DNA of 64,000 nt, taken from Sphingopyxis sp. Lineage in GTDB: Bacteria > Pseudomonadota > Alphaproteobacteria > Sphingomonadales > Sphingomonadaceae. The translations under genes and the position numbers were made by a program. Below are positions 14,324-63,090 of this stretch, piece by piece. How positions within the stretch are numbered: position 1 is the stretch's first letter; each line of letters opens with the position of its first letter. The notes beneath the pieces were generated by a model that did not search any database, was not told the DNA's origin, and saw only the letters and a program-made list of their open reading frames with translations. The DNA is taken from assembly GCA_016463225.1 (NCBI GenBank), contig JAEMRT010000004.1, forward strand, positions 1 through 64,000, written 5' to 3'.

Positions 14324-14419
14324 ATGGTGCTGCTTTCCTCCCATGCTTGGCCGAAACCGCCATGCCGGGGCATCTGGCTTACCCCGCGGCGCGAGTCAAA
14401 TGGGCGCGACGCCACAAGC

Positions 14420-28983: not shown

Positions 28984-29982
28984 CTAGAGTTTCAACAATT
29001 GCTTGCCGCGGTTCTGGCCGCTGAACAGGCGCTTCAACGTCGCGGGGGCATTTTCGAACCCCTGCTGCACATCCTCGCGATAGGTCAGCCGCCCGTCCTG
29101 GACGAAACCCTCGAGCCGTTTGCGGATTGCGGGAAATTCGGCCGCCCAGTCGAGAACGATAAAGCCCGCCATGGTGCCGCGCCGAAAGACCAGGTTGAAA
29201 TAATTCTGCGGTCCGGCGGGCAGCGATCCGGTCTCGTAGCGGCTGATCCCGCCGCAGATCGCGATCCGCGCCCCGGTTGCAATCTCGCCGAGCATGTCGT
29301 TGAGGATCGCGCCACCGACATTGTCGAAAATGACATCGACGCCGCGGGGGCAATGTTCCTTGATCTGCTTGCGCAGATTGCCCGCCTTGTAATCGATTGC
29401 GGCGTCATAGCCCGCTTCTTCGACCAGCCAGCGGCACTTGTCCGCACCGCCCGCGATGCCGACCGCGCGGCACCCCGCGATCTTGGCGAGCTGGCCGACG
29501 ACCGACCCGGTGGCCCCCGCCGCGCCCGACACGAGCACGGTATCGCCCGCGACCGGCCGCCCGACCTTGAACAGCCCGCAATATGCAGTCACTCCGGTGG
29601 TTCCGAGCACCGACAGCATGGCGGTCGGCGGCAGTGACGTGTCGATCTTCACCAACCCGTCGCCGCTCGATATATGCCATTCGGTCCAGCCGGTCGATCC
29701 CATGACGAAGTCGCCCGCGGCAAAGCCGGGATGGTTACTTTCCACCACTTCGCTGATCCCGCTGCCGCGCATCACGTCGCCGATCGCCATCGGCGCGACA
29801 TAGTCGGCGATATTCTCCATCCAACCCTTCTGCGCCGGATCGAAGCCAAGATAGAGCGTCTTCAAAAGCAGTTCGCCCTCACCCGGCGCGGCGATTTCGG
29901 TCTCGACCAGCTGGAAATCGCCTTCCTCGATCCCGCGTCCGCGCGGATGTCCGTTCAGCAGCCATTGGCGCGATGTCGGCAT
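28984..29982 (-). CDS. NADP-dependent MDR reductase (CurA/prostaglandin-reductase-like)
   Basis: A 332-residue zinc-free medium-chain dehydrogenase/reductase. N-terminal RQWLLNGHPRGRG and the substrate-domain motif YLGFDPAQKGWM are typical of leukotriene B4/curcumin reductases. The Rossmann motif is VSGAAGATGSVVGQLAKI, and FDNVGG follows. These enzymes reduce the C=C of alpha,beta-unsaturated ketones or aldehydes with NADPH. It is divergent from the molybdopterin-enzyme operon across a region with a 10-bp inverted repeat. A paralogue is at 32234-33250. The start at 29982 follows GGGAGAG; frame upstream runs through the promoter region and was not used. Confidence 0.88.
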   Translation of the reverse strand: MPTSRQWLLNGHPRGRGIEEGDFQLVETEIAAPGEGELLLKTLYLGFDPAQKGWMENIADYVAPMAIGDVMRGSGISEVVESNHPGFAAGDFVMGSTGWTEWHISSGDGLVKIDTSLPPTAMLSVLGTTGVTAYCGLFKVGRPVAGDTVLVSGAAGATGSVVGQLAKIAGCRAVGIAGGADKCRWLVEEAGYDAAIDYKAGNLRKQIKEHCPRGVDVIFDNVGGAILNDMLGEIATGARIAICGGISRYETGSLPAGPQNYFNLVFRRGTMAGFIVLDWAAEFPAIRKRLEGFVQDGRLTYREDVQQGFENAPATLKRLFSGQNRGKQLLKL

Positions 29983-30024
29983 CGATACTCTCCCTATTCT
30001 TTGCACCGCAACTGCGCCTGCGCC

Positions 30025-30067
30025 TGCGTCGCAACCACCGCCAAAAGTGCCAGTCGATTGCGACGCA
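30025..30067. promoter_or_regulatory. 10-bp inverted repeat in a divergent promoter region
   Basis: TGCGTCGCAA (30025-30034) and TTGCGACGCA (30058-30067) are perfect inverted repeats with a 23-base spacer. They lie between the leftward CurA-like gene and the rightward molybdopterin-enzyme operon. The spacing puts the half-sites about three helical turns apart (33 bases centre to centre), which suits a dimeric regulator. Identity of the regulator is unknown. Confidence 0.5.
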
Positions 30068-30100
30068 TGGGGGCGTAGGGTGCGATCAGGGAGAGAGACG

Positions 30101-32224
30101 ATGCCCGAAGTCCGCCGCAGTTTCTGCCGCTTCTGCCACGCCAATTGCGCGATGCTCGTCACCATCGACGACGGGCGCGTCACCAAGGTCGCGGGCGACC
30201 CCGACGACCCGGTGTTCGGCGGCTATACGTGCATCAAGGGGCGCCAGTTGCCCGAAGCGCACCACGGCCCACAGCGGCTGATGGTGTCGCAGAAGCGCGT
30301 CGACGGGGGGTTTCAGGACATATCGATGGAAACCGCGCTCGACGAGATCGGCGCGAAGCTGTCGGCGATCATCGCCGAACATGGGCCGCACGCGGTCGCG
30401 GTTTATGGCGGCACCTACGCGTTCCAGAACAGCGCCGGGGTCGGCAGCGCGATGGCGTTCGCGCAAGGGCTGGGCACGCGCAACATCTACACTTCGGTCA
30501 CCCTCGATCAGCCCGCCAAGGTTTACACGACGATGCGCTACGGCAACTGGATGGGCGGCATGCACACCTTCAGCGAGGCCGATGTCGCCTTCTTCATCGG
30601 CAACAACCCGATCGTCTCGCACTATGGCCCGCCGGGCGGCCTGCCCCCCTTCTCGCCCTCGCGCCGCCTGCGCGATGCGCTGGACAAGGGTCTCAAGCTG
30701 ATCGTCGCCGACCCGCGCGAGAGCGACGTTGCGGCGCTGGCGCATATCCATTTGCCCGTCCGCCCGGGCGAAGATCCGGCGATGCTTGCGGGGATCATCC
30801 ACGTGATCCTGTCGGAAGGACTCTACGACAAAGGCTTCGTCCAGCAATATGTCGACGGGATCGACGCGTTGCAGCGCGCCGTTGCCGACTTCACCCCGGC
30901 GGTTGCCGCCGCACGCGCCGGGGTCGAGGAAAGCCAGCTCGTCGCCGCCGCGCGCATGTTCGCGGGCGGGACCAAGGGCGTGGTGTCGACCGGCACCGGC
31001 CCTGAAATGGCCGGTCAGGGTACGCTGACCCAATATCTCGTGTCATCGCTCAACATCATCTGCGGGCGGTTTTGCCGCGAAGGCGAGAAGAGCTCGATCC
31101 CGCGGGTTTTCACCGCCATCACCCCGCGCCGCGCGCAGGTGGCGCCGCCAATGGCGCTTTATGGCGAAGGCTTTCCCGCCTCGCGTATCCGCGGCCTCAC
31201 CCACCTCGGTATGGAAATGCCGTGCAACGTGCTCGCCGACGAAATGCTCACCCCCGGCGACGGCCAGATCCGCGCGCTGATCTCGATCGGCGGCAACCCG
31301 GTGGTCGCCTTCCCTGATCAGGACAAGATGACCCGCGCGCTGGAAGGCCTCGAGCTGCTGGTCAGCGTCGATGTCAACGCCGAGTCGGCGACGGCGAAAC
31401 GCTCCGATTATGTCCTCGCCCCCTCCATGTGCCTTGAACGCGAGGACATCAGCAACCTCAGCGAATGGTGGTACGAAATCCCCTACGCGCGCTATACCGA
31501 GGCGATGATCGACGCGCCCGGCGACCTGATCGAGGAATGGGAAATGCTCTGGGGGCTTGCGCACCGTATCGGCAGCGACATCCCACTCGCCGGCGGCCCC
31601 TGCCCGATGGATGAAAAGCCGAGCAAACAGGTGTTCCTCGACCTGATGACCGCTGGCTGCGTCGTCGCGCCGAGCCGGGTCCGCGCCGACACCGTCGATG
31701 GCCAGGCGGTGATCTATCCCGATCTTCACCCGGTCGTCGAACCCGGCGATCCCGGCGCGCCCGGCCGGTTCGACCTGACCGCGGGGGCGATGCCCGACCA
31801 GCTGATCGCTTATGGCAAAGCCGATCAGCCGACCCCCGATTTCCCGTACCGCATGGTGTCGCGCCGCAGCCGTCACCGGTTCAATTCGACCGGCCAGAAT
31901 CTGACCGCCCTCACCGCCAAGCGCACGACCAACCCCGCTTTCCTCCACCCCGACGACATGGCGCGCATTCCCTGCGCCGAAGGCGACATCGTCCGGATCC
32001 GGTCGGCGGCAGGCGAGGTGGTCGCCGAGGCGCGCGCCGCCGAAGGTATGCGGCCCGGGGTGGTATCGATGGCGCATGCCTTTGGCGGCCCCGATGTCGG
32101 GGCCGACGAGGTGCGGACACGCGGCGCTTCGACCAACCGGCTGGTCAGCGAGACCGTCCGTTACGACCCGATCACCGGCCAGTCGCTGCAAAGCGCGATC
32201 CCGGTCGCCATTGTTCCCGTCTGA
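30101..32224 (+). CDS. Molybdopterin-dependent oxidoreductase, DMSO-reductase superfamily
   Basis: A 707-residue bis-MGD enzyme. The N-terminal [4Fe-4S] site is Cys9, Cys12, Cys16 and Cys44 (CxxCxxxC-x27-C). Molybdopterin-binding segments follow (FFIGNNPIVSHYG, then VADPRESDVAALAHIHLPVRPG), and the C-terminal MopterinBD4 domain is around 590-700 (HRFNSTGQNL, NPAFLHPDDMARIP). No Tat signal is seen, so it should be cytoplasmic. It lacks partner subunits nearby. Related uncharacterised enzymes belong near the formate-dehydrogenase and acetylene-hydratase branches. The start at 30101 follows GGGAGAGAG. It heads an operon with an MDR reductase, ThuA-like protein and P450. Confidence 0.9.
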   Translation: MPEVRRSFCRFCHANCAMLVTIDDGRVTKVAGDPDDPVFGGYTCIKGRQLPEAHHGPQRLMVSQKRVDGGFQDISMETALDEIGAKLSAIIAEHGPHAVAVYGGTYAFQNSAGVGSAMAFAQGLGTRNIYTSVTLDQPAKVYTTMRYGNWMGGMHTFSEADVAFFIGNNPIVSHYGPPGGLPPFSPSRRLRDALDKGLKLIVADPRESDVAALAHIHLPVRPGEDPAMLAGIIHVILSEGLYDKGFVQQYVDGIDALQRAVADFTPAVAAARAGVEESQLVAAARMFAGGTKGVVSTGTGPEMAGQGTLTQYLVSSLNIICGRFCREGEKSSIPRVFTAITPRRAQVAPPMALYGEGFPASRIRGLTHLGMEMPCNVLADEMLTPGDGQIRALISIGGNPVVAFPDQDKMTRALEGLELLVSVDVNAESATAKRSDYVLAPSMCLEREDISNLSEWWYEIPYARYTEAMIDAPGDLIEEWEMLWGLAHRIGSDIPLAGGPCPMDEKPSKQVFLDLMTAGCVVAPSRVRADTVDGQAVIYPDLHPVVEPGDPGAPGRFDLTAGAMPDQLIAYGKADQPTPDFPYRMVSRRSRHRFNSTGQNLTALTAKRTTNPAFLHPDDMARIPCAEGDIVRIRSAAGEVVAEARAAEGMRPGVVSMAHAFGGPDVGADEVRTRGASTNRLVSETVRYDPITGQSLQSAIPVAIVPV

Positions 32225-32233
32225 GGAGTATTC

Positions 32234-33250
32234 ATGCCCGATAACCGCCGTTTTCTATTGATCCGCCGCCCCGATGGCGAACCGGTTCGCGAGGATTTTT
32301 CGCTGGTCAACGAACCCGCGCCAGAGCTCGCCGACGGCCAGTTCCTGATTCGCAACCATTATGCCTCGCTCGACCCCGCGATCCGCGGCTGGATGGACGA
32401 TGCGCCCAGCTATATGCCGCCGATCCCGCTCGGCTCTCCGGTGCGCGCCTCGACCGTCGGTGTCGTCGCGGCGAGCAAGGCCGAAGGCTTCGGGCCCGGC
32501 CAGTGGGTCATGGGACTGAACGGCATCGAGGACTATTCGGTCGGCACCGTCGGCGGTTTTACCCAGCCAATCGATGCAACGCTCGTGCCATCGGTCACCA
32601 ACTATCTGTCGGTGCTCGGCGCGGTCGGGATGACCGCATATTTCGGCTATATCGAGGTGTGCGAGCCCAAAGGCGGCCATGTCGTGCTGGTGACCGGCGC
32701 AGCGGGCGCGGTGGGGTCACTCGTCGGCCAGATTGCCAAGATCAAGGGCGCAGGCAAGGTCATCGGCATCGCGGGCGGCGCGGAGAAATGCGCGCGGCTG
32801 ATCGATCGCTACGGCTTCGACGCGGCGATCGATTATCGCGGCAAGGATGTGCGGGCGTTGACCGACGCGATCCGCGCCGAGGCGCCCGATGGGGTCGACA
32901 TCATCTTTGAAAATGTCGGCGGCGACATCCTCGACGCGGGGTTGATGAACCTGCGCCATGGCGCGCGGATCGGTTTATGCGGGCTGATCAGCGAGTATAA
33001 TTGCGTCGAAAAGGTCGGCGCGCGCAACATCTGGCAGTTGATCGTTCACCGCGCTTCGATCCGCGGGCTGCTCGTCGCCGATTACATCCCTCGTTTTGCC
33101 GAAGGCGGCGCCGAAATGGCGGGGTGGCTACAAGCGGGCAAACTGGTCGCCGACGAACATGTCGACGAGGGAATAGAAAATAGTTTCGACGCCTTCATGC
33201 GGCTGTTTTCGGGCAGCAATCAGGGCAAGATGATATTGAAGATCGCATGA
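32234..33250 (+). CDS. NADP-dependent MDR reductase (CurA/prostaglandin-reductase-like)
   Basis: A 338-residue paralogue of the enzyme at 28984-29982. It has the substrate-domain motif NHYASLDPAIRGWMDD, the Rossmann motif VTGAAGAVGSLVGQIAKI, FENVGGD and a C-terminal LFSGSNQGKMILKI. It reduces C=C bonds of enone-type intermediates using NADPH and lacks zinc ligands. It begins nine bases after the molybdopterin enzyme and overlaps the next gene by four bases (ATGA), so it is firmly within the operon. Two diverged copies in one region suggest two different unsaturated intermediates. Confidence 0.9.
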   Translation: MPDNRRFLLIRRPDGEPVREDFSLVNEPAPELADGQFLIRNHYASLDPAIRGWMDDAPSYMPPIPLGSPVRASTVGVVAASKAEGFGPGQWVMGLNGIEDYSVGTVGGFTQPIDATLVPSVTNYLSVLGAVGMTAYFGYIEVCEPKGGHVVLVTGAAGAVGSLVGQIAKIKGAGKVIGIAGGAEKCARLIDRYGFDAAIDYRGKDVRALTDAIRAEAPDGVDIIFENVGGDILDAGLMNLRHGARIGLCGLISEYNCVEKVGARNIWQLIVHRASIRGLLVADYIPRFAEGGAEMAGWLQAGKLVADEHVDEGIENSFDAFMRLFSGSNQGKMILKIA

Positions 33251-34023
33251 CCGATACGCGGCGCCTGCTCGTCCTGTCGGGCGGCCATCCCTATGAAGCC
33301 GAGCCTTTCGCCGCGCTGCTGGCGAGCTTCGACAGCTGGACGGTGACGCATCTGGTCCACCCCGAGGCCGAGGCAGCGGTCGCGGCAGGCGCCGCGAGCG
33401 AGGCCGACGCGATCCTCTTCTATGACATGCCCGGCTATGAGTTCGGCGACGGCAAGATGACGTCGCGCCCGCCATCGTGGACCTATCGCCGCGCGATCGC
33501 CGATTATTTCGGGCGCGGCGGCGGCGCGGTCGCGATGCACCATGCGATCGCGGGTTGGGCCGAGTGGCCCGAGTGGGCCGACATGCTCGGCGGGCGCTTC
33601 CTATACCAACCCGGCACCGCGAACGGAGAGAGTCATCTCGACTCGGGTTATCGCCACGACGTCCGCTACGACGCGGTCGTGCTCGATCCGAAGCATCCGG
33701 TGACCGCTGGTCTGCCGCCGCGCTTTTCGCTCTGCGACGAACTGTATCTGGCGCCGGGCTGGGGCGCGGTGACCCCGCTGCTCCGCGCCGACCACGCCTT
33801 CGTGCGCGGCAACTTCTATTCGGCAGCGCAGGCGGTGGCGGGGCGCATGTTCAGCAATAGTGGCTGGGATCACCGCCCCGAAAGCGACCTGATCGCGTGG
33901 GGAAAGCCCATCGGCGCGGGCCGTCTGATCTATCTCCAGCCCGGCGACGGCCCCGCCGCCTATGCCGACCCGAACTTGCGCCGGTTCCTTGCCAACGCGC
34001 TCGCCGATGTCGCCGTTTCCTAA
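33247..34023 (+). CDS. ThuA-like domain protein
   Basis: A 258-residue protein of the ThuA/amidotransferase-like fold, distantly related to the one at 18498-19259. Seen are the first strand LLVLSGGHPYE, ADAILFYDMPGYE, and GGGAVAMHHAIAGW at the central-loop position. Also visible are the substrate-side AGLPPRFSLCDELYL and the C-terminal RLIYLQPGDGPAAY. Reaction unknown. It overlaps the MDR reductase stop and is followed 75 bases later by the P450 gene. Its presence among redox enzymes in both copies suggests a hydrolase-like or isomerase-like role in the same type of pathway. Confidence 0.78.
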   Translation: MTDTRRLLVLSGGHPYEAEPFAALLASFDSWTVTHLVHPEAEAAVAAGAASEADAILFYDMPGYEFGDGKMTSRPPSWTYRRAIADYFGRGGGAVAMHHAIAGWAEWPEWADMLGGRFLYQPGTANGESHLDSGYRHDVRYDAVVLDPKHPVTAGLPPRFSLCDELYLAPGWGAVTPLLRADHAFVRGNFYSAAQAVAGRMFSNSGWDHRPESDLIAWGKPIGAGRLIYLQPGDGPAAYADPNLRRFLANALADVAVS

Positions 34024-34098: not shown

Positions 34099-35343
34099 GT
34101 GAACACTATCGCCGCAAGCAGCTTTTTCGAGCCGCAGGTTATCGCGGACCCGTTCGACTATTATCGCGCCTGGATGCCCAAGAGCCCCGTCGTGAAATTG
34201 TCGGAAGCGATGTTCCTCGTCCTCTCCTACGAGCATTGCGCACAGGCGACGGGCGACGTCGAAACCTTCTCGAACAATTTCCAGGGCACCTTGTCGGGCG
34301 CGATGGCCGAGGATAGCGACGTCGCGGCGATCCTCGCCGAGGGCTGGCCGCAGGTCGATACGCTGCTGACCGCCGACCCGCCGACCCACACCCGCTTTCG
34401 CAAGCTGGTCAACCTCGCCTTCTCGATGAAGCGCGTCGCCGCGATCGAAGAGGATATGCGCGGGGTCGTGATCGACCTGATCGAGAAAATGGCGGCAAAG
34501 GGCGAAGCCGACTTCGTCAGCGATTTCGGCATCCCCCTGCCCGTGGCGATGATCGCGAGCCAGATCGGCATGGAAGGCGAACTCGATCGCGTAAAGCGCT
34601 GGTCCGATGCCTTCGTCGATCGCCTTGGCCGGATGATCCCCAAGGAGCGCGAGCTGGAATGCGCGCGCGAGGTCGTCGAATTTCAGCGCCATATGAAGGC
34701 GAAGATCGACGAGCGCCGGGCGACACGCGCCGAGGATCTGCTCTCCGACCTCGTCTATGCCGAAGTCGACGGCGAACGCCCGCTCGAAGACGCCGAAATC
34801 CTGTCGATCATGCAGCAGCTGATGGTGGCGGGGAACGAGACGACGACCTCGGCGCTCGCCGGCGGGCTGCTCCAGCTGATCGAGAACCCCGACCAGATGG
34901 CGAAAGCCGTCGCCGCAGTCGATGCGGGCAACGAGCGCGCGATCATCAACCTGGTCGAGGAAGTGCTGCGCACCGAGAGCCCGACTGCGGGCATGTGGCG
35001 CATGGTGTTGAAAGACGCCGAACTGGGCGGGGTCAAAATCCCCGAGGGCGCAATGGTGCAGCTTCGCTATGCCGCGGCGAACCGCGATCCCGCCAAATAT
35101 CCCGACCCCGACCGTTTCGACATCGAACGCGCCAACGCGCGCAGTCACCTCGCTTTCGGCAAGGGCATCCATATGTGCGTCGGCAATATGCTGAGCCGCA
35201 AGGAAATGGCGGTCGCTTATTCCGAACTGCTGACCCGCCTCACCGATTTCCGCGTCGCCGACGGGCATGTGCCGAGCTGGCCACCCAATATGCTGCTGCG
35301 CGGGCTGACCACGCTGCCGATCAGCTTTCGGCGGCGCGCATGA
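34099..35343 (+). CDS. Cytochrome P450
   Basis: A 414-residue soluble bacterial P450. The I-helix oxygen-binding motif is AGNETTTS (near 250), the ExxR motif is in EEVLRTES, and the heme loop FGKGIHMCVG has the cysteine ligand at Cys360. It hydroxylates an unactivated carbon, needing a ferredoxin and reductase that are not encoded in this window. A GTG start follows GAAGAGG. It may have its own promoter in the 75-base gap. It is followed, with ATGA overlaps, by FadE, DUF35 and Ltp2-like genes, the same company that CYP125 keeps in actinobacterial steroid gene clusters. Confidence 0.93.
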   Translation: MNTIAASSFFEPQVIADPFDYYRAWMPKSPVVKLSEAMFLVLSYEHCAQATGDVETFSNNFQGTLSGAMAEDSDVAAILAEGWPQVDTLLTADPPTHTRFRKLVNLAFSMKRVAAIEEDMRGVVIDLIEKMAAKGEADFVSDFGIPLPVAMIASQIGMEGELDRVKRWSDAFVDRLGRMIPKERELECAREVVEFQRHMKAKIDERRATRAEDLLSDLVYAEVDGERPLEDAEILSIMQQLMVAGNETTTSALAGGLLQLIENPDQMAKAVAAVDAGNERAIINLVEEVLRTESPTAGMWRMVLKDAELGGVKIPEGAMVQLRYAAANRDPAKYPDPDRFDIERANARSHLAFGKGIHMCVGNMLSRKEMAVAYSELLTRLTDFRVADGHVPSWPPNMLLRGLTTLPISFRRRA

Positions 35344-36401
35344 ATTTCGATTTCGACGACGACCAGCAGCTGACGCGCGACACGATCGGGCGCTTTCTTG
35401 GGCCGGTGGACATCGCGGCGCGGCATGCGATGCGCAAGAGCGCCAGCGGCTATTCGCGCGATCGGTGGCAGGAGGTTGCCGACCTCGGCCTGCTCGCGCT
35501 CGCCGCGCCTGAGGCAATGGGCGGCATGGGCGGCACGATGGTCGACCTCGCGCTCGTCGCCGAAGCGCTCGGCAAAGGGATCGCGATCGATCCCTGGCTT
35601 GAAAACGGCGTATTGCCGATCCGGCTTGCCGCAGCGGCGGGCGATGGCGCGCTGGTCGAAGACTTGCTGGCGGGGTCGCACTTTGCCGCCGTGGCCTTTG
35701 CCGAGCCCGGCCGCCGATATGAAACCGAAGCGGTTGGAACGCGGGCCGAGGGTGGCCAGATCGTCGGCGCAAAAACCTTCGTCCTTGGCGCCCCGCTGGC
35801 CGACACGCTGCTCGTCACGGTCGCGGGAAACCAGCTCGCGAAGGTTGCTCGCAACGCCGTCGGGGTCGTGTTGCAGGACTATTCAGTGCTCGACGGATCG
35901 AACGCCGCGACGCTCGACCTGCACCGCGCGCCCGCTGAAATCCTCGACCTGCCCGCAGCGAAGTTCGATCGCGTGATCGGCGACATTCGCCTTCTCGCCG
36001 CCGCCGAGATGCTCGGGCTGGCGCAAGCGATGTTCGACGACACCCTCAACTATGTCGGCGAGCGCCAGCAGTTCGGCGCCGCGATCGGCAGTTTCCAGGC
36101 ACTCCAGCACCGCCTCGTCGAATGCTATGCGTCGCTTGAACAGGCGCGCTCGATGGTGCTGCGTACCGCCATGCTCGATCCGACGACCGACGATGCGAAC
36201 TGGCCACGCATCGCGGCGGGGGCCAAAGCCTTTGTCGGCGAAGCGGCGATGAAGATCGGGCTCGAAGCGGTGCAGATGCACGGCGGCATGGGGCAGACCG
36301 ACGAGTTGGCGATCGGCCATGCGCTGAAGCGTGCGATGCTGCTCGACAAATTGTTCGGCGATCAGGATCATTGCCTGCGCAGCTTTGCGAGGGCGGCATG
36401 A
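35340..36401 (+). CDS. Acyl-CoA dehydrogenase, FadE28-like subunit
   Basis: A 353-residue acyl-CoA dehydrogenase-fold protein, shorter than the typical 380-400. It lacks the YEG-type catalytic Glu near the C-terminus; instead it ends MHGGMGQTDELAIGHALKRAM. It has the C-terminal helix motif RQQFGAAIGSFQALQHRL. This short, motif-poor type matches one subunit of alpha2beta2 steroid acyl-CoA dehydrogenases (ChsE1/FadE28). The second subunit type is encoded at 37943-39151. The ATG overlaps the P450 stop. Frame continuing upstream is a shadow of the P450 gene. Confidence 0.85.
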   Translation: MNFDFDDDQQLTRDTIGRFLGPVDIAARHAMRKSASGYSRDRWQEVADLGLLALAAPEAMGGMGGTMVDLALVAEALGKGIAIDPWLENGVLPIRLAAAAGDGALVEDLLAGSHFAAVAFAEPGRRYETEAVGTRAEGGQIVGAKTFVLGAPLADTLLVTVAGNQLAKVARNAVGVVLQDYSVLDGSNAATLDLHRAPAEILDLPAAKFDRVIGDIRLLAAAEMLGLAQAMFDDTLNYVGERQQFGAAIGSFQALQHRLVECYASLEQARSMVLRTAMLDPTTDDANWPRIAAGAKAFVGEAAMKIGLEAVQMHGGMGQTDELAIGHALKRAMLLDKLFGDQDHCLRSFARAA

Positions 36402-36790
36402 GCGCGCTCACCCCCATTGCGCCGGGCCTGTGGACCGACGAGGCCGAACCACGGCTGATCGGCGGACGGCGGGCGAGCGGCGAGATTGTCTTTCCCGTTC
36501 CCGACGGCGACGCCGCCGCGCTGGTTGAGCCCGTCGCGCTCTCCCGGCATGGCACGTTGTGGTCGTGGACGACGCAAAGTTTCGAGCCGAAATGGCCCTA
36601 CGCCGGGCCCCAGCCCTTCACCCCCTATCTGATCGGTTATGTCGAACTGCCCGGCGAGGTCATCATCGAGACGCGCATCGTCGATGCCGCCGCCGTCGAC
36701 CTGACGATCGGCATGCCGATGGAACTCACAATCATCCCCTTCAACGCTGAGCGGTCGACTTACGCCTTCCGGCCGGGGAGCAGTTCATGA
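36398..36790 (+). CDS. DUF35-type OB-fold protein, partner of the Ltp2-like thiolase
   Basis: A 130-residue protein of the DUF35 (OB-fold, acyl-CoA-associated) family. The OB-type strands include TLWSWTTQSF, YLIGYVELPGEVIIETRIV and MPMELTIIPF. The usual N-terminal zinc-ribbon cysteines are missing: the equivalent loop reads LIGGRRASGEIVF. In actinobacterial steroid degradation a DUF35 domain binds Ltp2 to form an aldolase complex. Here it lies immediately before the Ltp2-like gene, with ATGA overlaps on both sides. It probably needs that partner for stability or activity. Confidence 0.82.
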   Translation: MSALTPIAPGLWTDEAEPRLIGGRRASGEIVFPVPDGDAAALVEPVALSRHGTLWSWTTQSFEPKWPYAGPQPFTPYLIGYVELPGEVIIETRIVDAAAVDLTIGMPMELTIIPFNAERSTYAFRPGSSS

Positions 36791-37935
36791 ACGACGACGT
36801 CTATATCATCGGCGCGGGCATCCACCCCTTTGGCCGTACCGAGGGCCGGTCGGGGCGCGACCAAGGTGTCTTTGCCGTACGCGAGGCGCTCGCGGACGCA
36901 GGGCTCGCGTGGCCCGATGTCGAATTCGCCTATGGCGGGTCGGCGGCGGCAGGATCGGCCGACATCATGGTGAACGAACTCGGGCTGACCAGCATCCCCT
37001 TCATCAACGTCGCCAACGGCTGCGCGACCGGCGGCAGCGCGCTGACCGCGGCGCGCAACGCGATCGCCGCGGGGGCCTGCGACATCGCGCTCGCGGTCGG
37101 GTTCGACAAGCATCCGCGCGGCGCGTTCAACGCCAAGCCGTCCGACTATGGCCTGCCCGAATGGTATGGCGAAACCGGCATGATGCTGACGACGCAGTTC
37201 TTCGCGCTCAAGATCCAGCGTTATATGGCGCTGCACGGGATCAGCCGCCGCACGCTCGGGCTGGTCGCCGAAAAGGCGTTTCGCAACGGCACGCTCTGCG
37301 AGCATGCCTGGCGGCGCGCGCCAGTCGATCTCGACACGATCCTGAACGCGCCGGTCGTCAACGATCCGCTGACCAAGTACATGTTCTGCTCGCCCGCCGA
37401 GGGCGCGGTCGCGCTGGTGCTGGCGAGCGCCAGGAAGGTGCGCGAACTCGGGTCCGATGCGGTGCGCGTCGCCAGCGTCGCCTTCCGCACCCGCCCCGAG
37501 GGCTCGTTCGAGGTGTTTGCCCCGTCGATCAGCGTCAACGGCGGCGGCAAGCCGACCGAGGTCGCCAGCCGCGCCGCGTTCGAGATGGCGGGCATCGGTC
37601 CCGATGACGTCTCGGTGGCACAATTGCAGGACACCGAAAGCGGCGCCGAGATCATGCATATGGCCGAAAACGGCTTCTGCGCCGACGGCGAACAGGAACA
37701 ATGGCTGGCCGAGGGATGGAGCGAGATCGGCGGCAAGCTGCCGATCAACACCGATGGCGGCTGCCTCGCCTGCGGCGAGCCGATCGGCGCCTCGGGCCTA
37801 CGTCAAGTCTATGAAAATACGGTGCAATTGCGCGGTCGCGGCGGCGACCGGCAGGTGCCGAACGACCCCAAAGTGGGGTATAGCCATGTCTATGGCGCGC
37901 CCGGCCTGTCGGCCGTGGCGATCCTCGAACGCTAG
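36787..37935 (+). CDS. SCP-x/Ltp2-like thiolase-fold protein (probable retro-aldolase)
   Basis: A 382-residue thiolase-fold protein of the lipid-transfer/SCP-x group. A Cys is present at the nucleophile position (Cys79, NVANGCATGGSA). The usual GHP histidine motif is replaced by GEP in GGCLACGEPIGASGLRQ, so the classical thiolase triad is incomplete. This fits Ltp2-type enzymes, which perform retro-aldol cleavage of beta-hydroxyacyl-CoA side chains with a DUF35 partner. The DUF35 gene is directly upstream with overlap. It probably shortens a branched side chain of a cyclic substrate. Confidence 0.85.
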   Translation: MNDDVYIIGAGIHPFGRTEGRSGRDQGVFAVREALADAGLAWPDVEFAYGGSAAAGSADIMVNELGLTSIPFINVANGCATGGSALTAARNAIAAGACDIALAVGFDKHPRGAFNAKPSDYGLPEWYGETGMMLTTQFFALKIQRYMALHGISRRTLGLVAEKAFRNGTLCEHAWRRAPVDLDTILNAPVVNDPLTKYMFCSPAEGAVALVLASARKVRELGSDAVRVASVAFRTRPEGSFEVFAPSISVNGGGKPTEVASRAAFEMAGIGPDDVSVAQLQDTESGAEIMHMAENGFCADGEQEQWLAEGWSEIGGKLPINTDGGCLACGEPIGASGLRQVYENTVQLRGRGGDRQVPNDPKVGYSHVYGAPGLSAVAILER

Positions 37936-37942
37936 CGGACCC

Positions 37943-39151
37943 ATGGATTTAGATCTCACCAAAGACGAACTTGAATTCCGCGAAGAAGTGCGTGATTTCC
38001 TACGCACGTCGCTCCCCGATTATGTGCGCGATGGCGCGCGGCGCACTCCCGGTGTCTTCGTCGAGCCCGACATCGGCCTCGTCTGGCACCGCATCCTCAA
38101 CGACAAGGGCTGGGTCGCCTATCACTGGCCCGAAGATTGCGGCGGCACCGGCTGGACGCCGATGCAGCGCTATATCTTTGAAAAGGAATGCGCGATCGCA
38201 GGCGCGCCGGCGCTGTCGGTGCTCGGCCTGCGGCTCGTCGGCCCGGTCATCTGCGCCTTCGGCACGCAGGAACAGAAGGACCGCTTCCTGCCCGCGATCC
38301 GCGCCGGGACCGATTACTGGTGCCAGGGCTATTCCGAACCGCAGAGCGGCTCCGACCTCGCCTCGCTGCGCACCCGCGCGCGGCGCGACGGCGATGAGTA
38401 TGTCGTCGACGGGTCGAAAATCTGGACCACCCACGCCCATCATGCGAACTGGATCTTCTGTCTCGTCCGCACCGACGGCGAGGTGAAGAAGCAGGCGGGG
38501 ATCAGCTTCATCCTCGTACCCATGGACCAGCCTGGCGTCACCGTGACCCCGATTATCACCATGGCGGGCGATCACGAGGTCAATCAGGTCTTCCTCGACG
38601 GCGCGCGGACATCGGTCGACAACCGCATCGGCGAAGAGGGCCAGGGCTGGACGATCGCCAAATTCCTGCTCGAAAACGAACGCGGCGGATCGTTCCACGC
38701 GCCGCGCCTAATCCGCGCGATCGATCATCTGGAGCAACTCGCGGGCGTCGCGCCGAGCGGTCACAATGGCGCGCTCGGCGGCGATATTCAGATCGCGATC
38801 CGGATCGCGCGGCTGCGGCTCGAGGCCGAGGCGCTTGAGACCACCGAATTGCGTATCCTCGCCGACATCGCCAAGGGCCGCCCCGCCGGACCGCAAACGT
38901 CGCTGGTCAAGCTGATCTCGTCCGAGATTCACCAGCGGATCGACGGGCTCGCGATGGACCTCCACGGCTATGACGGCCTGCAACTGCCGACCGTCCGGCC
39001 GCTCTATGGCAATGAAGCGCCGCCGCCGGTTGGCGACGAGGACGCGCAGGTTGCCGCCGCCCGCTATCTCAATAGCCGTGCCTGGACCGTCTTCGGCGGT
39101 TCGAGCGAAGTTCAGAAAAACATCATAGCAAAGACGGTGCTCCGCTTATGA
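37943..39151 (+). CDS. Acyl-CoA dehydrogenase, FadE29-like subunit
   Basis: A 402-residue acyl-CoA dehydrogenase. N-terminal DLTKDELEFREEVRDFLR, YSEPQSGSDLASLRTRA (FAD/substrate motif), KIWTTHAHHANW, and a C-terminal VFGGSSEVQKNIIAKTVL. The Gly-Gly in place of Tyr-Glu-Gly in that last motif is typical of FadE29/ChsE2-type subunits and other large-substrate dehydrogenases. It should pair with the short subunit at 35340-36401. The start at 37943 is seven bases after the thiolase stop; frame upstream is a thiolase shadow. The stop overlaps the LuxR gene start (ATGA). Confidence 0.88.
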   Translation: MDLDLTKDELEFREEVRDFLRTSLPDYVRDGARRTPGVFVEPDIGLVWHRILNDKGWVAYHWPEDCGGTGWTPMQRYIFEKECAIAGAPALSVLGLRLVGPVICAFGTQEQKDRFLPAIRAGTDYWCQGYSEPQSGSDLASLRTRARRDGDEYVVDGSKIWTTHAHHANWIFCLVRTDGEVKKQAGISFILVPMDQPGVTVTPIITMAGDHEVNQVFLDGARTSVDNRIGEEGQGWTIAKFLLENERGGSFHAPRLIRAIDHLEQLAGVAPSGHNGALGGDIQIAIRIARLRLEAEALETTELRILADIAKGRPAGPQTSLVKLISSEIHQRIDGLAMDLHGYDGLQLPTVRPLYGNEAPPPVGDEDAQVAAARYLNSRAWTVFGGSSEVQKNIIAKTVLRL

Positions 39152-40014
39152 CACATGCATTGCGACTTGCCGGCCCGTATGAGATAGTCCCCGACATGGG
39201 AGAACAGGCAGAAAAACTGCCGGTCGACGGGCTCGCACCCCCAATGGATGCCAGGACACTCGTCGATGCGGTCACGATCCGCAACGTGGAGGATATCCAC
39301 GATGCCGCGGTGCTGCTGCGTGACTATGCCGCCGCCTTTGGCCTGCGCGCGGCGATGTGCGACGATATTGCCTCGAAGGAAACGATGGTCGATGCCGATG
39401 GCGCGGTGCTCGCTGCCGACCTCTTCGGCTGGCTCGGTGACGGCGAGCGCTGGTGGGAAGATCATCGGCTGGCGCTGCATTCGCCGCTGCCGCGTTCGTG
39501 CCGCTACGAAAGCGAGCCGTTCTGGTGCAACAGCGACGGGTTTCGTACCGCACAGCCGAACCCCTATCTCGAGGAAATCGATCCGGCGCGCTATTTCGCT
39601 GCAAATCCGCGTTACAAGGCAGCGATCGTTGTGCCGGTGCATCTGCCATTCGGACAGATTTCCGCCAACAGCTTTCACCCGACCGACCCCGAGATCGACG
39701 ATCTGACCGAATTGTTTGCGGAGATTGGCGACACGCTGGCGCTCGCGACGCGGCGCTTCATCGCTGGCTATGCCTCGGCGATGCGCACCAAGCGCCGCAT
39801 CCCGTCGGACTGCGAATTGTCGAAGCGCGAGGTCGAATGCCTGCGCTGGGCCGCGATCGGCAAGACCGACCGCGAGATCGGCATGATCATCTCGCTCAGC
39901 CACGCAACGGTGCGCTATCATGTCCACCGCGCCGGCGAGAAGCTGAACTCGGTCAACCGGGCGCAGACGATCTTCAAGGCCGGGCAGCTGGGGTATCTGG
40001 GCGCGAACAGCTAG
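39148..40014 (+). CDS. LuxR-family transcriptional regulator with N-terminal ligand-binding domain
   Basis: A 288-residue regulator. About residues 35-205 form an autoinducer-binding-like domain (WWEDHRLALHSPLPRSCRYE, then YKAAIVVPVHLPFGQI). The C-terminal GerE/LuxR HTH is at about 222-285: LSKREVECLRWAAIGKTDREIGMI-type sequence, then SHATVRYHVHRAGEKL. No luxI-type synthase is nearby, so it is an orphan that more likely senses a pathway metabolite. It is the last gene of the molybdopterin/P450 operon, coupled to FadE by ATGA. An alternative start is at 39196. Confidence 0.88.
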   Translation: MTHALRLAGPYEIVPDMGEQAEKLPVDGLAPPMDARTLVDAVTIRNVEDIHDAAVLLRDYAAAFGLRAAMCDDIASKETMVDADGAVLAADLFGWLGDGERWWEDHRLALHSPLPRSCRYESEPFWCNSDGFRTAQPNPYLEEIDPARYFAANPRYKAAIVVPVHLPFGQISANSFHPTDPEIDDLTELFAEIGDTLALATRRFIAGYASAMRTKRRIPSDCELSKREVECLRWAAIGKTDREIGMIISLSHATVRYHVHRAGEKLNSVNRAQTIFKAGQLGYLGANS

Positions 40015-40547
40015 CCCAGCGAGCGTAGCGGATCGCTGCCGTCCCAATTCCGCGCCGCGGCGCGCATCATCGCGAACAATTCCCTGGTGCCCGCCTGCGG
40101 CTCCAGCAGTTCGACCAGATTGCCCGGCCCTGTCCCCGGATCGGCATAGATCACGCCGCCACCGTCGCCGACGGGCGCCTCGAAAATAATCTCGGCGCCG
40201 ACCTCGCCGCACCGCGTCCGCGCCTCGGCGATCGAATCGACCAGGACGCACACATGGTGGAGTCCTTCGCCGACCGCATATTCGCCGCGATAGAGCGACT
40301 TCGCGTCATTCTCGGGCCGGATCAGTTCGATCTGCATGTCGCCCCAATATCCCAGCGCCATGGTGAAGACCGGATCGCTGGCCTCGCCGCGATAGCGCCC
40401 GCCGGGTAGCGCCACGTTCGGCAGCAGGAAGAACGGCCCCGCGCCGATCACTTCGGTCCAGTACTTAACCGCCGCGTCGAAGTCCGACGGCACGAACGCC
40501 AGCTGCATGACATCCCCCAATGATGCGAGCGTAACTGGTCCGGCCAT
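40011..40547 (-). CDS. VOC-family (glyoxalase-like) protein
   Basis: A 178-residue vicinal-oxygen-chelate protein with two beta-alpha-beta-beta-beta units. Metal-ligand positions appear as Gln in MQLAFVP, Glu in QIELIRP, His in HHVCVLV and Glu in NLVELLEP. The first ligand is Gln instead of the common His, as in some epimerase-like members. Candidate reactions are epimerisation of a 2-methylacyl-CoA or handling of a hydroxy-keto intermediate. It converges with the LuxR-type gene (4-base overlap) and is divergent from the Rieske oxygenase gene across a region with a 9-bp inverted repeat. Confidence 0.82.
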   Translation of the reverse strand: MAGPVTLASLGDVMQLAFVPSDFDAAVKYWTEVIGAGPFFLLPNVALPGGRYRGEASDPVFTMALGYWGDMQIELIRPENDAKSLYRGEYAVGEGLHHVCVLVDSIAEARTRCGEVGAEIIFEAPVGDGGGVIYADPGTGPGNLVELLEPQAGTRELFAMMRAAARNWDGSDPLRSLG

Positions 40548-40599: not shown

Positions 40600-40646
40600 A
40601 GATAGCCGAGACCCGGAAGCATACTGGGCAAAATGTGAGGAGAGTC

Positions 40647-41876
40647 ATGGCCGAGTCCGATCCCCATATCGCCCCGAAGGATTGGCCCGCCGTCCGCAAG
40701 CGCAATGCGCGCACCGGATTGCGCAAGCTGGTGTCGATCATCGCCGAGAACCGCACCGACCGCGCCGAGGCGCCGCTACCGCTGCACAAGTCCATCTATA
40801 CCGGCGAAGCGCGCAATGCTGCCGAGATGCAGCATATCTTCCGCAATGAACCGATCGTCGCCGGGCTGAGCGGCGACATTCCCAAGGCGGGCGACACGCT
40901 GGTCTTCGACTCGGTCGGGCCGTCGATCCTTGTCGCGCGCGGCAAGGATGGCGTTGCGCGCGCCTTCCTCAATATGTGTACGCATCGCGGCGCCAGGCTG
41001 GTCGAGGAAAAGGAACCGTGGAGCGGCCCGCGACCACGGCTCGTCTGTCCCTTCCACGCCTGGACCTTTGACCCGGCGGGCGAACTCGTCGGACAGCCGG
41101 GCAAGGAGGGGTTCGCCAATTGCGAAATCGGCGCCCGCAACCTGATCGCCCTGCCCTGCACCGAACATCTCGGCCTGATCTTCGTGCGCGCCAATCCCGA
41201 CGGCGAGCCGGTCGATGCCGAAGCGCATCTCGGCGATTTCGGACCCGTGCTCGCGCAGCTCGAACTCCACCGCGCCGAGCCGGTCAAAAAGGGCATCCTC
41301 ACCGCCGATTCGAACTGGAAATTCGCGCTCGACACCTATGGCGAGGGCTATCATTTCAAGATGCTCCACAACACGACGATCGGCCAGACGCACTACAGCG
41401 ACCGCAACGTCTATGAACCGATCGGCCGCCATCATCGCGTCAGTTTTCCCGACCTGTCGATCGGCAATCTCGTTGGCAAGGACGAGAGCGAGTGGCCCGA
41501 GACCGAATATGGCGGGGTGCATTTCCTGTTCCCCAACACCGTCATTTTCTTCGGTGCGGTGACCCCCGGCGTCTATTTCACCCAGGTCTTCCGCCTGTTT
41601 CCCGATGGACCGGGCAAGATGTTCTGCCAGTTCGCGGTCTATGCGCCGTTCGGGGTCGAAGATGACGCGCATCGCGATATGTGTGTGATGGCCTATGACG
41701 CGACCGCCACCGTCGTGCAGACCGAGGATTATCGCGTTGCGAGCAGCGGTTACGCCAATCTGATGACCGCGCCCGACGATTTCCGCGTCGTGCTCGGCGC
41801 GAACGAGCCGGCGCTGCACGGCGTCCACCGCGCCCTCGCCGCCGCCTGCGGCATGCCGCTCGACCAGCTCGCCTGA
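40647..41876 (+). CDS. Rieske non-heme iron oxygenase, catalytic subunit
   Basis: A 409-residue oxygenase alpha subunit. The Rieske [2Fe-2S] ligands are Cys111 and His113 (CTHRG) and Cys134 and His137 (CPFHAW). The mononuclear iron site lies in DTYGEGYHFKMLH, with His236 and His241 and Asp or Glu just before. It hydroxylates or dihydroxylates a ring using electrons from a reductase and ferredoxin, neither found in this window. The start at 40647 has GAGGAG four bases upstream; a GTG at 40635 is the alternative. It is followed by a second Rieske oxygenase after 14 bases. Confidence 0.92.
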   Translation: MAESDPHIAPKDWPAVRKRNARTGLRKLVSIIAENRTDRAEAPLPLHKSIYTGEARNAAEMQHIFRNEPIVAGLSGDIPKAGDTLVFDSVGPSILVARGKDGVARAFLNMCTHRGARLVEEKEPWSGPRPRLVCPFHAWTFDPAGELVGQPGKEGFANCEIGARNLIALPCTEHLGLIFVRANPDGEPVDAEAHLGDFGPVLAQLELHRAEPVKKGILTADSNWKFALDTYGEGYHFKMLHNTTIGQTHYSDRNVYEPIGRHHRVSFPDLSIGNLVGKDESEWPETEYGGVHFLFPNTVIFFGAVTPGVYFTQVFRLFPDGPGKMFCQFAVYAPFGVEDDAHRDMCVMAYDATATVVQTEDYRVASSGYANLMTAPDDFRVVLGANEPALHGVHRALAAACGMPLDQLA

Positions 41877-41890
41877 ACCCGGAGTCCAAG

Positions 41891-43318
41891 ATGAACGACC
41901 TCTCGCCTCTCCAGGACCAGAACCGCGACGATCGTTGCCCCGGGACCAGCTATACCGACATGCTGAAGGCCGATACGCGGCGCGTGCCCGACTATCTGTT
42001 CGCCGAATCGAACCAGGATATGGGCGACGCGCCGATCCCGATCGAACGGTACGTCAGCGAGGATTGGGCCCGGCTCGAACGCGAAAAGATGTGGCCGAAC
42101 ATCTGGCAATATGCCGCGCGCGAAGAGGATATGCCCGAACCCGGCGATACCGTCGTCTATGACATCAACGAAAAAAGCATCCTGCTCGTCCGGCAGAAGG
42201 ATTATTCGGTCAAGGCCTTCTACAATGTCTGCCTCCACCGCGGCCGCAAGCTGCGCACCGAAAGCGGACGCGCCGTCAACCTGCGCTGCCCCTTCCACGG
42301 CTTCCAGTGGAACCACGACGGCAGCTTCAAGGAAGCGCCTTGCGCGTGGGACTTCAAACATCTCGAAGCCAAGGACATGAGCCTGCCCGAACTGCGCGTC
42401 GAGCGCTGGCAGGGGTTCATCCTCGTCACCGAAAATCACGACCTGCCCGCTTTTCGCGACTGGGTCGGCCCCGGGGTCGAGCATTATGACAATTGGCGGC
42501 TCGACGAATGTTACACCGGCGCGTGGGTCGGCCGCGTCATCCCGGCGAACTGGAAAGCCGTGTCCGAGGCGTTCATGGAGGCCTGGCACAGCATCGTCAC
42601 CCATCCGCAGATCCTGGGCTTCACCGCCGACGCCAACACGCGCTACGATCTCTACGGCGATTTCCTCAACCGCGCGATCACTCCCGCAGGCGCAATGTCG
42701 CCGCATATCAAGGGCAAGGACCAGTTCTACGTCCTGAAATCGCTGGAGGATTTCATCGGCGCCGGCGACAGCCGGGCGCGCCGCGCGACCGGCGACCCAG
42801 CAGACCTGAAAGGTTTTGAAGCCGACGATCCGATGCTGGCGCGCAAGGTGCTGGCACAGGCGAACCGCGACGCCTTTTCGGCGATGAACGGGCATGATTA
42901 TTCGGCCGCGACCGACAGCGAGATGCTCGATAATTTCACCTATAATGTCTTTCCCAACTGGTCGCCGTGGGGCGGGTTGGTGCCGAACATCGTCTATCGC
43001 TGGCGGCCGTGGGGCGATGCCGACCATTGCCTGATGGAAGTCCGCATATTGATGCGCACGCCGAAGGGGGAAAAGCCTCCGAAGGCGGCACCGATGCACC
43101 TGATCCCCGACGACCAGCCCTTTTCCAGCGCCAGCCATCTGATCGGCGCCGCGCTCGCCGGAGTGTTCGATCAGGATATGGAAAACCTGCCCTATGTGCA
43201 GGAGGGCATGAAATCCTCGCCCAACGGCGTCCTCGAACTCGGCCATTATCAGGAAAGCCGCATCCGCCATTTCCATCGCACGCTGGAAAAATATATGGAC
43301 GGGACGCTGCCCGCCTGA
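41891..43318 (+). CDS. Rieske non-heme iron oxygenase, catalytic subunit
   Basis: A 475-residue oxygenase, longer than its neighbour and only distantly similar. The Rieske ligands are Cys114 and His116 (CLHRGRKL) and Cys133 and His136 (CPFHGFQW). The mononuclear iron histidines are His233 and His238 in EAWHSIVTHPQ. The extra length is mainly in the C-terminal half after residue 250. No beta subunit is present, so it should be an alpha-only (KshA/phthalate-type) oxygenase. It is coupled to the next gene by TGATG overlap. The tandem pair may act at two positions of one substrate. Confidence 0.92.
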   Translation: MNDLSPLQDQNRDDRCPGTSYTDMLKADTRRVPDYLFAESNQDMGDAPIPIERYVSEDWARLEREKMWPNIWQYAAREEDMPEPGDTVVYDINEKSILLVRQKDYSVKAFYNVCLHRGRKLRTESGRAVNLRCPFHGFQWNHDGSFKEAPCAWDFKHLEAKDMSLPELRVERWQGFILVTENHDLPAFRDWVGPGVEHYDNWRLDECYTGAWVGRVIPANWKAVSEAFMEAWHSIVTHPQILGFTADANTRYDLYGDFLNRAITPAGAMSPHIKGKDQFYVLKSLEDFIGAGDSRARRATGDPADLKGFEADDPMLARKVLAQANRDAFSAMNGHDYSAATDSEMLDNFTYNVFPNWSPWGGLVPNIVYRWRPWGDADHCLMEVRILMRTPKGEKPPKAAPMHLIPDDQPFSSASHLIGAALAGVFDQDMENLPYVQEGMKSSPNGVLELGHYQESRIRHFHRTLEKYMDGTLPA

Positions 43319-47267: not shown

Positions 47268-48260
47268 TCAGCCTTTCCAGTTCATCGCGGCGCGCACCGC
47301 ATCGGCGATCGCATCCTTGTTCGGAATCCACGCCTGTTCGAGCGCATTGGCCATCGGCACCGCCGAGAAGGCGCCGCCGATGCGCGTGACCGGCGCCTTG
47401 AGCTTGCCGAACAATTTTTCGTTGAGGCGCGAGGCGATTTCGGCGCCGGTGCCATATTGCTTCACCGCTTCGTGGAGCACGACGGCGCGGCCGGTCTTTT
47501 CGACCGAGGCGGTCACCGTCGCCTCGTCATAGGGCGCAATGGTGCGCAGATCGATGACCTCGACCGAAATGCCTTCCTCGGCGAGTTTGCCGGCGATTTC
47601 GAGCGCATCAAGGACAGTGCGACCATAGGTGATGATCGAACAGTCGCCGCCTTCGCGCGTCACCGCCGCCTTGCCGAGCGGCACGATATGTCCGGGCCCC
47701 GGATCGTCCGATTTCAGGCCGTAACAAAGGATATTCTCGATGAAGATCACCGGGTCGTTGCACGCGATCGCGGCGCGCATCAGCCCCTGCGCGTCGGCGG
47801 CATTCGATGGGGTGACGACCTTCAGCCCCGCAACGTGCGCGAACCAGGCTTCGAGCATGTCCGAATGCTGGCCGCCAAAGCCAACGCCCACCCCGGTGGT
47901 GGTGCGGATCACCAGCGGCACATTGGTCTGCCCGCCCGACATGAAACGCAGTTTCGCCGCGTGGTTGACGATCTGATCCATCGCCACGGTGACGAAGTTC
48001 ATCAGCATGATCTCGGCGATCGGGCGGAAACCGGCGAGCGCGGCGCCGACGCAGGCGCCGACGATCGCCTGTTCCGAAATCGGCGTCGCGCGGACGCGGT
48101 TCTCGCCATATTTTTCGGTAAGACCAGCCGAGATTTTGAACACCCCGCCGCCCTGTTTCGCTGCGACATCCTCGCCGAGCAGGATCACGCCTTCATCCTC
48201 GGCCATCGCTTCGTCGATCGCGCGATTGATCGCCTGCGTCATCGTGATCTGGGCGCTCAT
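47268..48260 (-). CDS. 2-oxo acid/acetoin dehydrogenase E1 component, beta subunit
   Basis: A 330-residue transketolase-like E1-beta. Motifs: MTQAINRAIDEAMAEDEGVILLGEDVA at the N-terminus, RATPISEQAIVGACVGAALAGFRPIAE, then GVGFGGQHSDMLEAWFAHVAGLKVV. With E1-alpha it forms a thiamine-diphosphate alpha2beta2 enzyme that decarboxylates a 2-oxo acid or splits an acyloin and transfers the product to lipoate. The ATG at 48260 overlaps the E1-alpha stop (ATGA). Frame upstream is an E1-alpha shadow. The closest look is to acetoin and branched-chain types. Confidence 0.92.
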   Translation of the reverse strand: MSAQITMTQAINRAIDEAMAEDEGVILLGEDVAAKQGGGVFKISAGLTEKYGENRVRATPISEQAIVGACVGAALAGFRPIAEIMLMNFVTVAMDQIVNHAAKLRFMSGGQTNVPLVIRTTTGVGVGFGGQHSDMLEAWFAHVAGLKVVTPSNAADAQGLMRAAIACNDPVIFIENILCYGLKSDDPGPGHIVPLGKAAVTREGGDCSIITYGRTVLDALEIAGKLAEEGISVEVIDLRTIAPYDEATVTASVEKTGRAVVLHEAVKQYGTGAEIASRLNEKLFGKLKAPVTRIGGAFSAVPMANALEQAWIPNKDAIADAVRAAMNWKG

Positions 48261-63088: not shown

Positions 63089-63090
63089 CG

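Follow-up and report, generated by a model that had tools for sequence, protein, structure and literature searches.

A five-gene operon at positions 34099 to 39151 of a 64,000-nucleotide stretch of Sphingopyxis sp. DNA (the window) encodes a thiolase-fold enzyme that has kept its nucleophilic cysteine and lost the usual catalytic histidines. This enzyme belongs to the SCP2-type thiolase fold, and its partners are a cytochrome P450, two acyl-CoA dehydrogenases (ACADs) and a DUF35 protein. Tentatively, and with slightly less than even confidence, we read the operon as a module for C-C bond cleavage without a hydratase, set in a sphingomonad catabolic island and in this case probably directed at an alicyclic terpenoid or apocarotenoid. 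The window covers the opening 64 kb of a contig (C21) in an assembly of 5.6 Mb and 239 contigs that is 96% complete and 7% contaminated. An earlier note on this DNA had recognized a sphingomonad, and the closest named thiolases among the matches listed are from Sphingopyxis (94-96% identity). The five gene types that it named have also held up.

The genes of the operon lie on the forward strand and are closely spaced. The P450 (34099 to 35343, 414 aa, Pfam p450 110 bits) stands at the head, as had been noticed before. It is followed by a short ACAD (ACADb, 35340 to 36401, 353 aa) that is PimD- or FadE28-like, a DUF35 (OB-fold) subunit (36398 to 36790), the thiolase-fold enzyme (36787 to 37935), and a long PimC-like ACAD (ACADa, 37943 to 39151). 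A LuxR-type regulator with a GerE domain (39148 to 40014, forward strand) comes next. Through this regulator, four of the five junctions are ATGA overlaps (P450 to ACADb, ACADb to DUF35, DUF35 to thiolase, and ACADa to LuxR). The thiolase and ACADa genes are separated by a 7-nt gap, with the start of the FadE29-like ACADa at 37943. The tight ATGA coupling described earlier is thus found at three of the four junctions within the five genes and not at the thiolase/ACADa junction.

The catalytic residues of the thiolase-fold enzyme set it apart from both ordinary thiolases and Ltp2. In a local alignment with solved relatives, the nucleophile position is Cys79 here, cysteine in SCP2-thiolase and BbsB, and glycine in TcLtp2. 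The motif that reads HDCF in SCP2-thiolase, HDAF in BbsB, and YDHF in Ltp2 is QDTE here (281 to 284). Within the GEP motif (330 to 332), Glu331 replaces the histidine of the thiolase GHP motif and shares its column with Tyr344 of TcLtp2, so that Tyr294, His296, and Tyr344 of TcLtp2 correspond to Gln281, Thr283, and Glu331. The C-terminal glycine loop reads YGAPG (369 to 373). Cys79, QDT, GEP, and YGAPG are kept across 105 unique homologues, and the four full patterns fit 103 of them; the exceptions are one QDTD sequence from Mycobacterium branderi and one GCAVG sequence, with the cysteine retained. The histidines of both the HDCF and the GHP motifs are substituted in all 105.

The enzyme forms a clade of its own on the thiolase side of the tree. 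The tree has 30 rows with one solved Ltp2 and leaves out Sal, IpfD, PhlC, and the M. tuberculosis Ltp2. Support for the QDTE clade is 100/100, and its split from the Ltp2 side is supported at 100/99. The Ltp2 side holds the solved Ltp2, 4u4e, and two Ltp2-like proteins, while the other side holds the thiolases and the QDTE clade. The clade sits on a long branch (1.84), and the deeper joins are unsure because the tree program warned of long branches. The best matches of the predicted fold are zebrafish SCP2-thiolase and BbsB, with template modelling (TM) scores to the query of 0.82 to 0.85.

The DUF35 subunit has lost its zinc finger. Pfam scores only the OB domain (OB_ChsH2_C), and the protein contains no cysteine, which refines the DUF35 assignment made earlier. 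Among 102 DUF35 rows above 38% identity (100 distinct sequences, with one M. branderi row adjoining another thiolase gene), the C4 zinc-finger pattern is missing in 101, and the sole bearer is from Rhodococcus opacus. The R. qingshengii DUF35 (locus L035), which is under the 38% cut, likewise has a C4 zinc finger. The model of the window's DUF35 has a predicted local distance difference test (pLDDT) score of 93, and its best PDB matches are 7pxp (the small subunit of BbsAB) and 6ok1. The 17 top-ranked fold matches are in thiolase, aldolase, and acyltransferase complexes (7pxp, 7pyt, 6ok1, 6esq, 5m3k, 9myr, 9skh, 9vbo, and 9vbt). The R. opacus plasmid cluster (L034, 8719-10340 and 11600-13134) has two C-C cleaving pairs: an Ltp2-like pair (YDCF, 310 bits to 6ok1) adjoins the QDTE pair, whose DUF35 is the one that retains the zinc finger.

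The ACADs resemble the two subunits of pimeloyl-CoA dehydrogenase. ACADa scores 361.3 bits with the pimC_large model and ACADb 172.8 bits with pimD_small, both below the curated cut-offs (623.85 and 652.7). Over the aligned parts, ACADa shares 47% identity with an annotated PimC from Roseomonas, 35% with 4x28_A, and 36% with Tcur3483, while ACADb shares 34% with the annotated Roseomonas PimD. The best solved matches of ACADa are 4x28_A, which we take to be FadE26, and Tcur3483, and its Glu246 aligns with the glutamate of the 4x28_A HER motif, presumably the catalytic base. In a tree of ACADa built without FadE28 and FadE29, it joins PimC rather than 4x28_A or Tcur3483 with moderate support (84/83). 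The P450 had been taken for a counterpart of cyp125, and this assignment fails in a comparison by score rank: CYP125 entries score under several other P450s. Identity over the aligned parts is 37% with CYP142A3 and 36% with 6gmf. Membership in a P450 family requires 40% identity.

The core of the operon is conserved around the thiolase gene, and hydratases are rare there. Neighbourhoods were compared with tblastn within 8 kb of the thiolase at 80 unique loci having at least 7 kb on both sides; these loci were gathered by thiolase similarity and are biased toward near relatives. DUF35 is found at 79 loci, ACADa at 75 (68 with at least 40% identity), ACADb at 71 (34 with at least 40%), the LuxR-type regulator at 56, and the P450 at 33 (31 with at least 40%). 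This grouping of genes exceeds chance. Enoyl-CoA hydratase is near the thiolase at two loci and MaoC at one, so that any hydratase is found at 3 of the 80. Seven query proteins were used in this search, which a distant hydratase could escape, and the matches lie in the loci that supplied three of the queries (L033, L035, and L036). The window's contig has no MaoC-family match, and MaoC genes are present on other contigs of the assembly. The missing chsH1 (MaoC) gene that had been pointed out is thus indeed absent from the contig, but its absence is not a loss here; with MaoC near 1 and any hydratase near 3 of the 80 loci, it is a feature of the family. At four loci (L033, L034, L035, and L038) a phosphotransferase gene occurs with an ACAD near the thiolase, an arrangement that may recall 4-hydroxyacyl-CoA phosphorylation systems; such a phosphotransferase gene is found at 17 of the 80 loci.

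Gene order is also kept over a longer distance. Eight neighbourhoods, each extended to some 58 kb, all show the order MoOx, PTGR2, P450, ACADb, DUF35, thiolase, ACADa. ThuA2 lies between PTGR2 and the P450 in seven, and the LuxR-type gene is likewise present in seven. Insertions of a short-chain dehydrogenase (SDR) gene and of a further ThuA gene are frequent.

An orthologue of the thiolase with at least 66% identity is found in 63 of the 298 genomes of the family (source genome included), and the next matches have at most 38% identity, so that the clade is sharply bounded. In a phylum-wide sample the thiolase was found in only 2 of 398 genomes at E 1e-75, the source genome and one other of the same family, and for this reason the spread beyond the order was judged from plasmids and genome contigs. 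Plasmid copies occur in Novosphingobium, Croceicoccus, Sphingobium, Rhodococcus, Streptomyces, and M. branderi (72-50% identity among the best 20 of 138 records), and seven plasmid regions were examined for gene content. A scan of genome contigs, covering the best 80 rows and leaning toward near relatives, had single SAR92, Marinomonas, Parvularculaceae, and Gemmobacter records among the matches listed. The viral contigs searched contained no relative of the thiolase. The core recurs across the Sphingomonadales, and the Actinobacteria have more distant ACADs (30-42% identity in two Rhodococcus plasmid regions and that of M. branderi).

A carotenoid-oxygenase-fold enzyme (CCO) upstream of the operon is linked to the thiolase in one direction. 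Its gene (25003 to 26454, forward strand, RPE65 418.7 bits) precedes the P450 gene by about 8 kb. Of the 296 genomes of the order, 11 from six genera, source genome included, have a CCO orthologue (E at most 1e-150). The QDTE thiolase is present in all ten of the other CCO genomes and in 1 of 12 genomes of the same genera that lack the CCO (Fisher test, 3.4e-5, with kinship ignored). The two genes are at most 20 kb apart in six of the ten, and distant or on other contigs in four. Since the CCO genomes carry the thiolase and most thiolase genomes have no CCO, the CCO presupposes the module and not the reverse. The most plausible view is that the CCO is an upstream addition tied to a lineage, one that bears on the substrate of the window's version alone.

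The CCO lacks the residue pair associated with lignostilbene cleavage. In LsdA a tyrosine presumably binds the phenol group of the substrate, and we take Lys135 of PbLSD to be equivalent to the LsdA lysine. In the eight CCOs aligned, of the 11, the four iron-binding histidines are kept in all, and all have Phe and Met in place of the LsdA Tyr and Lys. In the available part of the PbLSD study, docking brings Lys135 to the resveratrol hydroxyl (PMC6097328). Stilbene-binding residues were looked for in PMC8191317 and do not occur there. One CCO orthologue (G089:C1:1432093-1433535) reads through an in-frame TGA and may for that reason be a decayed copy.

The remaining genes of the island encode oxygenases, reductases, and a 2-oxoacid dehydrogenase. 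Two Rieske oxygenase alpha subunits are on the forward strand at 40635 to 41876 (27 of 80 loci, 10 with at least 40% identity) and 41891 to 43318 (29 of 80 loci, 22 with at least 40%). A KstD-like FAD dehydrogenase is on the reverse strand at 45009 to 46640, and the KstD-like and Rieske genes that the earlier note saw nearby are therefore present. The best NCBIfam model for the KstD-like protein is 4-oxocyclohexanecarboxylate 2-dehydrogenase (450.9 bits, cut-off 1000), with the KstD model close behind (417.7 bits), and homologues with 48-50% identity are found in five of the eight extended neighbourhoods. The E1 subunits of a 2-oxoacid dehydrogenase are encoded on the reverse strand, beta at 47268 to 48521 (33 of 80 loci, 25 with at least 40% identity) and alpha at 48257 to 49237 (35 of 80 loci, 8 with at least 40%), and an E2 gene is near the thiolase at 29 of 80 loci. 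Upstream on the forward strand are an acyl-CoA synthetase with an AMP-binding domain adjoining the CCO (26473 to 28053), a molybdopterin oxidoreductase (MoOx, 30047 to 32224, 22 of 80 loci), an enone-reductase-like protein of the curcumin reductase type (32234 to 33250, NF058644 308 bits with a cut-off of 440, 40 of 80 loci), and a ThuA-domain protein (33247 to 34023, 24 of 80 loci). On the reverse strand are a second enone-reductase-like protein (28984 to 30186, ADH_N_2 and ADH_zinc_N, 40 of 80 loci) and a VOC protein (Glyoxalase_4, 40011 to 40547, 43 of 80 loci). The true starts of E1 beta, MoOx, and the second enone-reductase-like protein are likely within their open reading frames.

From these genes a pathway can be proposed for an alicyclic terpenoid or apocarotenoid, a substrate class suggested by the model score of the KstD-like protein, the flanking enone-reductase-like genes, and the co-occurring CCO as an alkene-cleaving oxygenase. 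The CCO, the P450, the two Rieske proteins, and short-chain dehydrogenases would oxygenate the skeleton, with the acyl-CoA synthetase activating the acid. A PimCD-like heteromeric ACAD would then dehydrogenate the CoA ester. Bound to the metal-free DUF35, the thiolase-fold enzyme would cleave a C-C bond via an acyl enzyme on Cys79, with Glu331 occupying the usual place of the histidine. The E1 alpha/beta enzyme would process the keto product. Oxygenases and dehydrogenases are more likely than a hydratase to introduce the oxygen needed for C-C cleavage. In a narrower version, the set of Cys79, Gln281-Asp282-Thr283, Glu331, and Tyr369 with His109 and His291, together with the metal-free DUF35, would cleave the C-C bond without hydration at the core of a pathway for ionone-ring apocarotenoid breakdown. 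This version is distinctly doubtful; no description of the set was found in the literature searched.

Several observations weigh against the proposed pathway. The acyl-enzyme role of Cys79 is putative, since both catalytic histidines are lost. The thiolase model has a pLDDT of 74 with low confidence at the active-site loops (108-134 and 324-335), so active-site geometry was not taken from it. The Rhodococcus DUF35s retain the zinc finger, showing that a metal-free DUF35 is not required for this type of thiolase. A deeper clade (pNL2, Croceicoccus, and Rhodococcus) is without much of the island. In the PDB, the CCO is still matched best by lignostilbene-type enzymes, and the co-occurrence test takes no account of kinship. 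The CCO is present in just 12 of the 62 other thiolase genomes of the family (6 of 34 genera), being within 20 kb of the thiolase in nine of the 12, and in three of the eight extended neighbourhoods and none of the 80 loci within 8 kb. It is therefore not part of the core and speaks for this window's sub-lineage only.

A rewired retro-aldol enzyme of the Ltp2 or Sal type is a possible but rather unlikely alternative. Glu331, and perhaps Tyr369, would act on a beta-hydroxyacyl-CoA with a pre-existing tertiary alcohol, so that no hydratase is needed; rhodococcal acid, which is derived from abscisic acid, is an example of such a natural acid. The pairing with DUF35 as in Ltp2 and Sal, the scarcity of hydratases nearby, and the shared column of Glu331 and Tyr344, the acid of TcLtp2, are all consistent with this chemistry. 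The base tyrosine (YDHF, YDCY), however, is Gln in 105 of 105 homologues, the tree places the clade on the thiolase side, and the nucleophilic cysteine kept throughout is absent in TcLtp2 and CtSal (PMC12329534, available part). Abscisic acid as the substrate is a weak lead: R. qingshengii is named as an abscisic acid degrader (PMC12509608), and the thiolase is carried on a plasmid of one strain of that species.

It is unlikely that the operon is an ordinary beta-oxidation thiolase cluster acting on a dicarboxylic or cyclic acid. Here the PimCD-like ACADs would work with a hydratase and a dehydrogenase encoded elsewhere in the genome, which fits the MaoC genes on other contigs and a thiolase that both fold and tree place nearest to BbsB and SCP2 thiolase. 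Against it, the HDCF and GHP histidines are both substituted in every homologue, and the Roseomonas pim cluster encodes an acyltransferase, a ligase, and a hydroxyacyl-CoA dehydrogenase of its own, with no DUF35 in the ten features listed. A true igr-type steroid side-chain operon that has lost ChsH1 is very improbable: the gene list is similar, KstD-like and two Rieske genes are nearby, and the best solved matches of ACADa are 4x28_A and Tcur3483, but the Ltp2 motif, zinc finger, and MaoC are absent, ACADa falls outside the 4x28_A group, and the KstD-like protein scores best with the 4-oxocyclohexanecarboxylate dehydrogenase model, though KstD is close (450.9 vs 417.7 bits).

The match to the igr operon proposed in the earlier note does not hold. 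The thiolase is outside the Ltp2 clade (100/99) and has lost Tyr294, His296, and Tyr344; with moderate support (84/83), ACADa groups with PimC. The phylogeny thus speaks against the steroid-type assignment for the thiolase and, moderately, for ACADa. A steroid origin was set aside on the tree, the lost residues, and the ACADa grouping, and of the suggested unassigned steroid- or terpenoid-type system the terpenoid part stands.

Each of the known systems shares some features with the operon. The igr operon (Mycobacterium; Thermomonospora curvata, 6ok1) has the same gene types, an SCP2-fold enzyme paired with DUF35, and two ACAD genes; in contrast, the window's operon lacks YDHF, Tyr344, the zinc finger, and MaoC, its ACADa is PimC-like, and its P450 is less than 40% identical to CYP142A3. 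The Sal-Shy(DUF35) pair of Comamonas testosteroni (9myr) also joins a thiolase fold to DUF35. In the available part of PMC12329534, the source of the catalytic roles of Ltp2 and Sal residues used here, Sal has YDCY and glycine at the nucleophile position and its DUF35 has a C3H1 zinc finger, whereas the window has QDTE, Cys79, and a DUF35 without cysteine. The benzoylsuccinyl-CoA thiolase BbsAB (7pxp) is the nearest DUF35-bound thiolase by sequence (32%), and the window's DUF35 has its best fold match in the BbsAB small subunit, but BbsB retains HDAF and the GHP histidine, and the zinc finger is lost in the window. PimC and PimD resemble the ACADs as large and small subunits (47% and 34% identity, Roseomonas) and have other operon partners, with the window's ACADs under the curated cut-offs. 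IpfE is a DUF35 protein, and IpfD/IpfE are likened to the window's pair by description rather than by sequence. The ipfDE-encoded thiolase of sphingomonad ibuprofen degradation is credited with propionyl-CoA release (PMC9195938, available part).

The open-access literature covered names no cluster of this composition. The parts covered of the open-access literature on DUF35 with thiolases, aldolases, or ACADs concern steroid, aromatic, and related systems, with none describing this clade, and the parts on candidate substrates name no such cluster. For geosmin, the literature covered in part showed no link to the module. Tomatine degradation was considered, as Sphingobium sp. TomTYG65 holds a thiolase copy, and rejected; the main text of PMC10653915 (strain RC1) has no thiolase, acyl-CoA, or P450. 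For abscisic acid, the first of two parts of a paper on expression data from Novosphingobium sp. P6W (PMC6938937) names no genes.

Related gene clusters were also seen elsewhere. Another contig of the assembly (C116; L166, 266-10559) carries a second similar module, with a P450, a DUF35 with a C4 zinc finger, an Ltp2-like protein with YDGF, E1 alpha and beta, a fused double ACAD, and an enoyl-CoA hydratase. It may come from another organism, given the shortness of the contig and the 7% contamination of the assembly. Plasmid pSHV1 of Sphingobium herbicidovorans has another OB-fold and thiolase pair (L174, 17138-18738) in a catabolic cluster with a long ACAD open reading frame and hydratases. 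Within the window, a CaiB-type protein at 13127-14344 (2-methylfumaryl-CoA isomerase model, 356 bits against a cut-off of 725) belongs to a separate acyl-CoA cluster, and at 59705-63151 an open reading frame of 1148 aa, regulator-like by eye, lies beside a gene that looks acetoacetate-decarboxylase-like.

Enzymes of the thiolase fold bound to DUF35 make or break C-C bonds in the metabolism of steroids, aromatics, and polyketides, and their catalytic residues differ among the branches that have been studied. A branch from Alphaproteobacteria and Actinobacteria in which both of the usual histidines are replaced and the nucleophile is kept gives a clear opportunity to test how the chemistry of this fold can change. 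The case also calls for caution in naming such clusters igr-like from their gene lists. If the link to the CCO holds, the island could be one route by which some sphingomonads turn over terpenoids.

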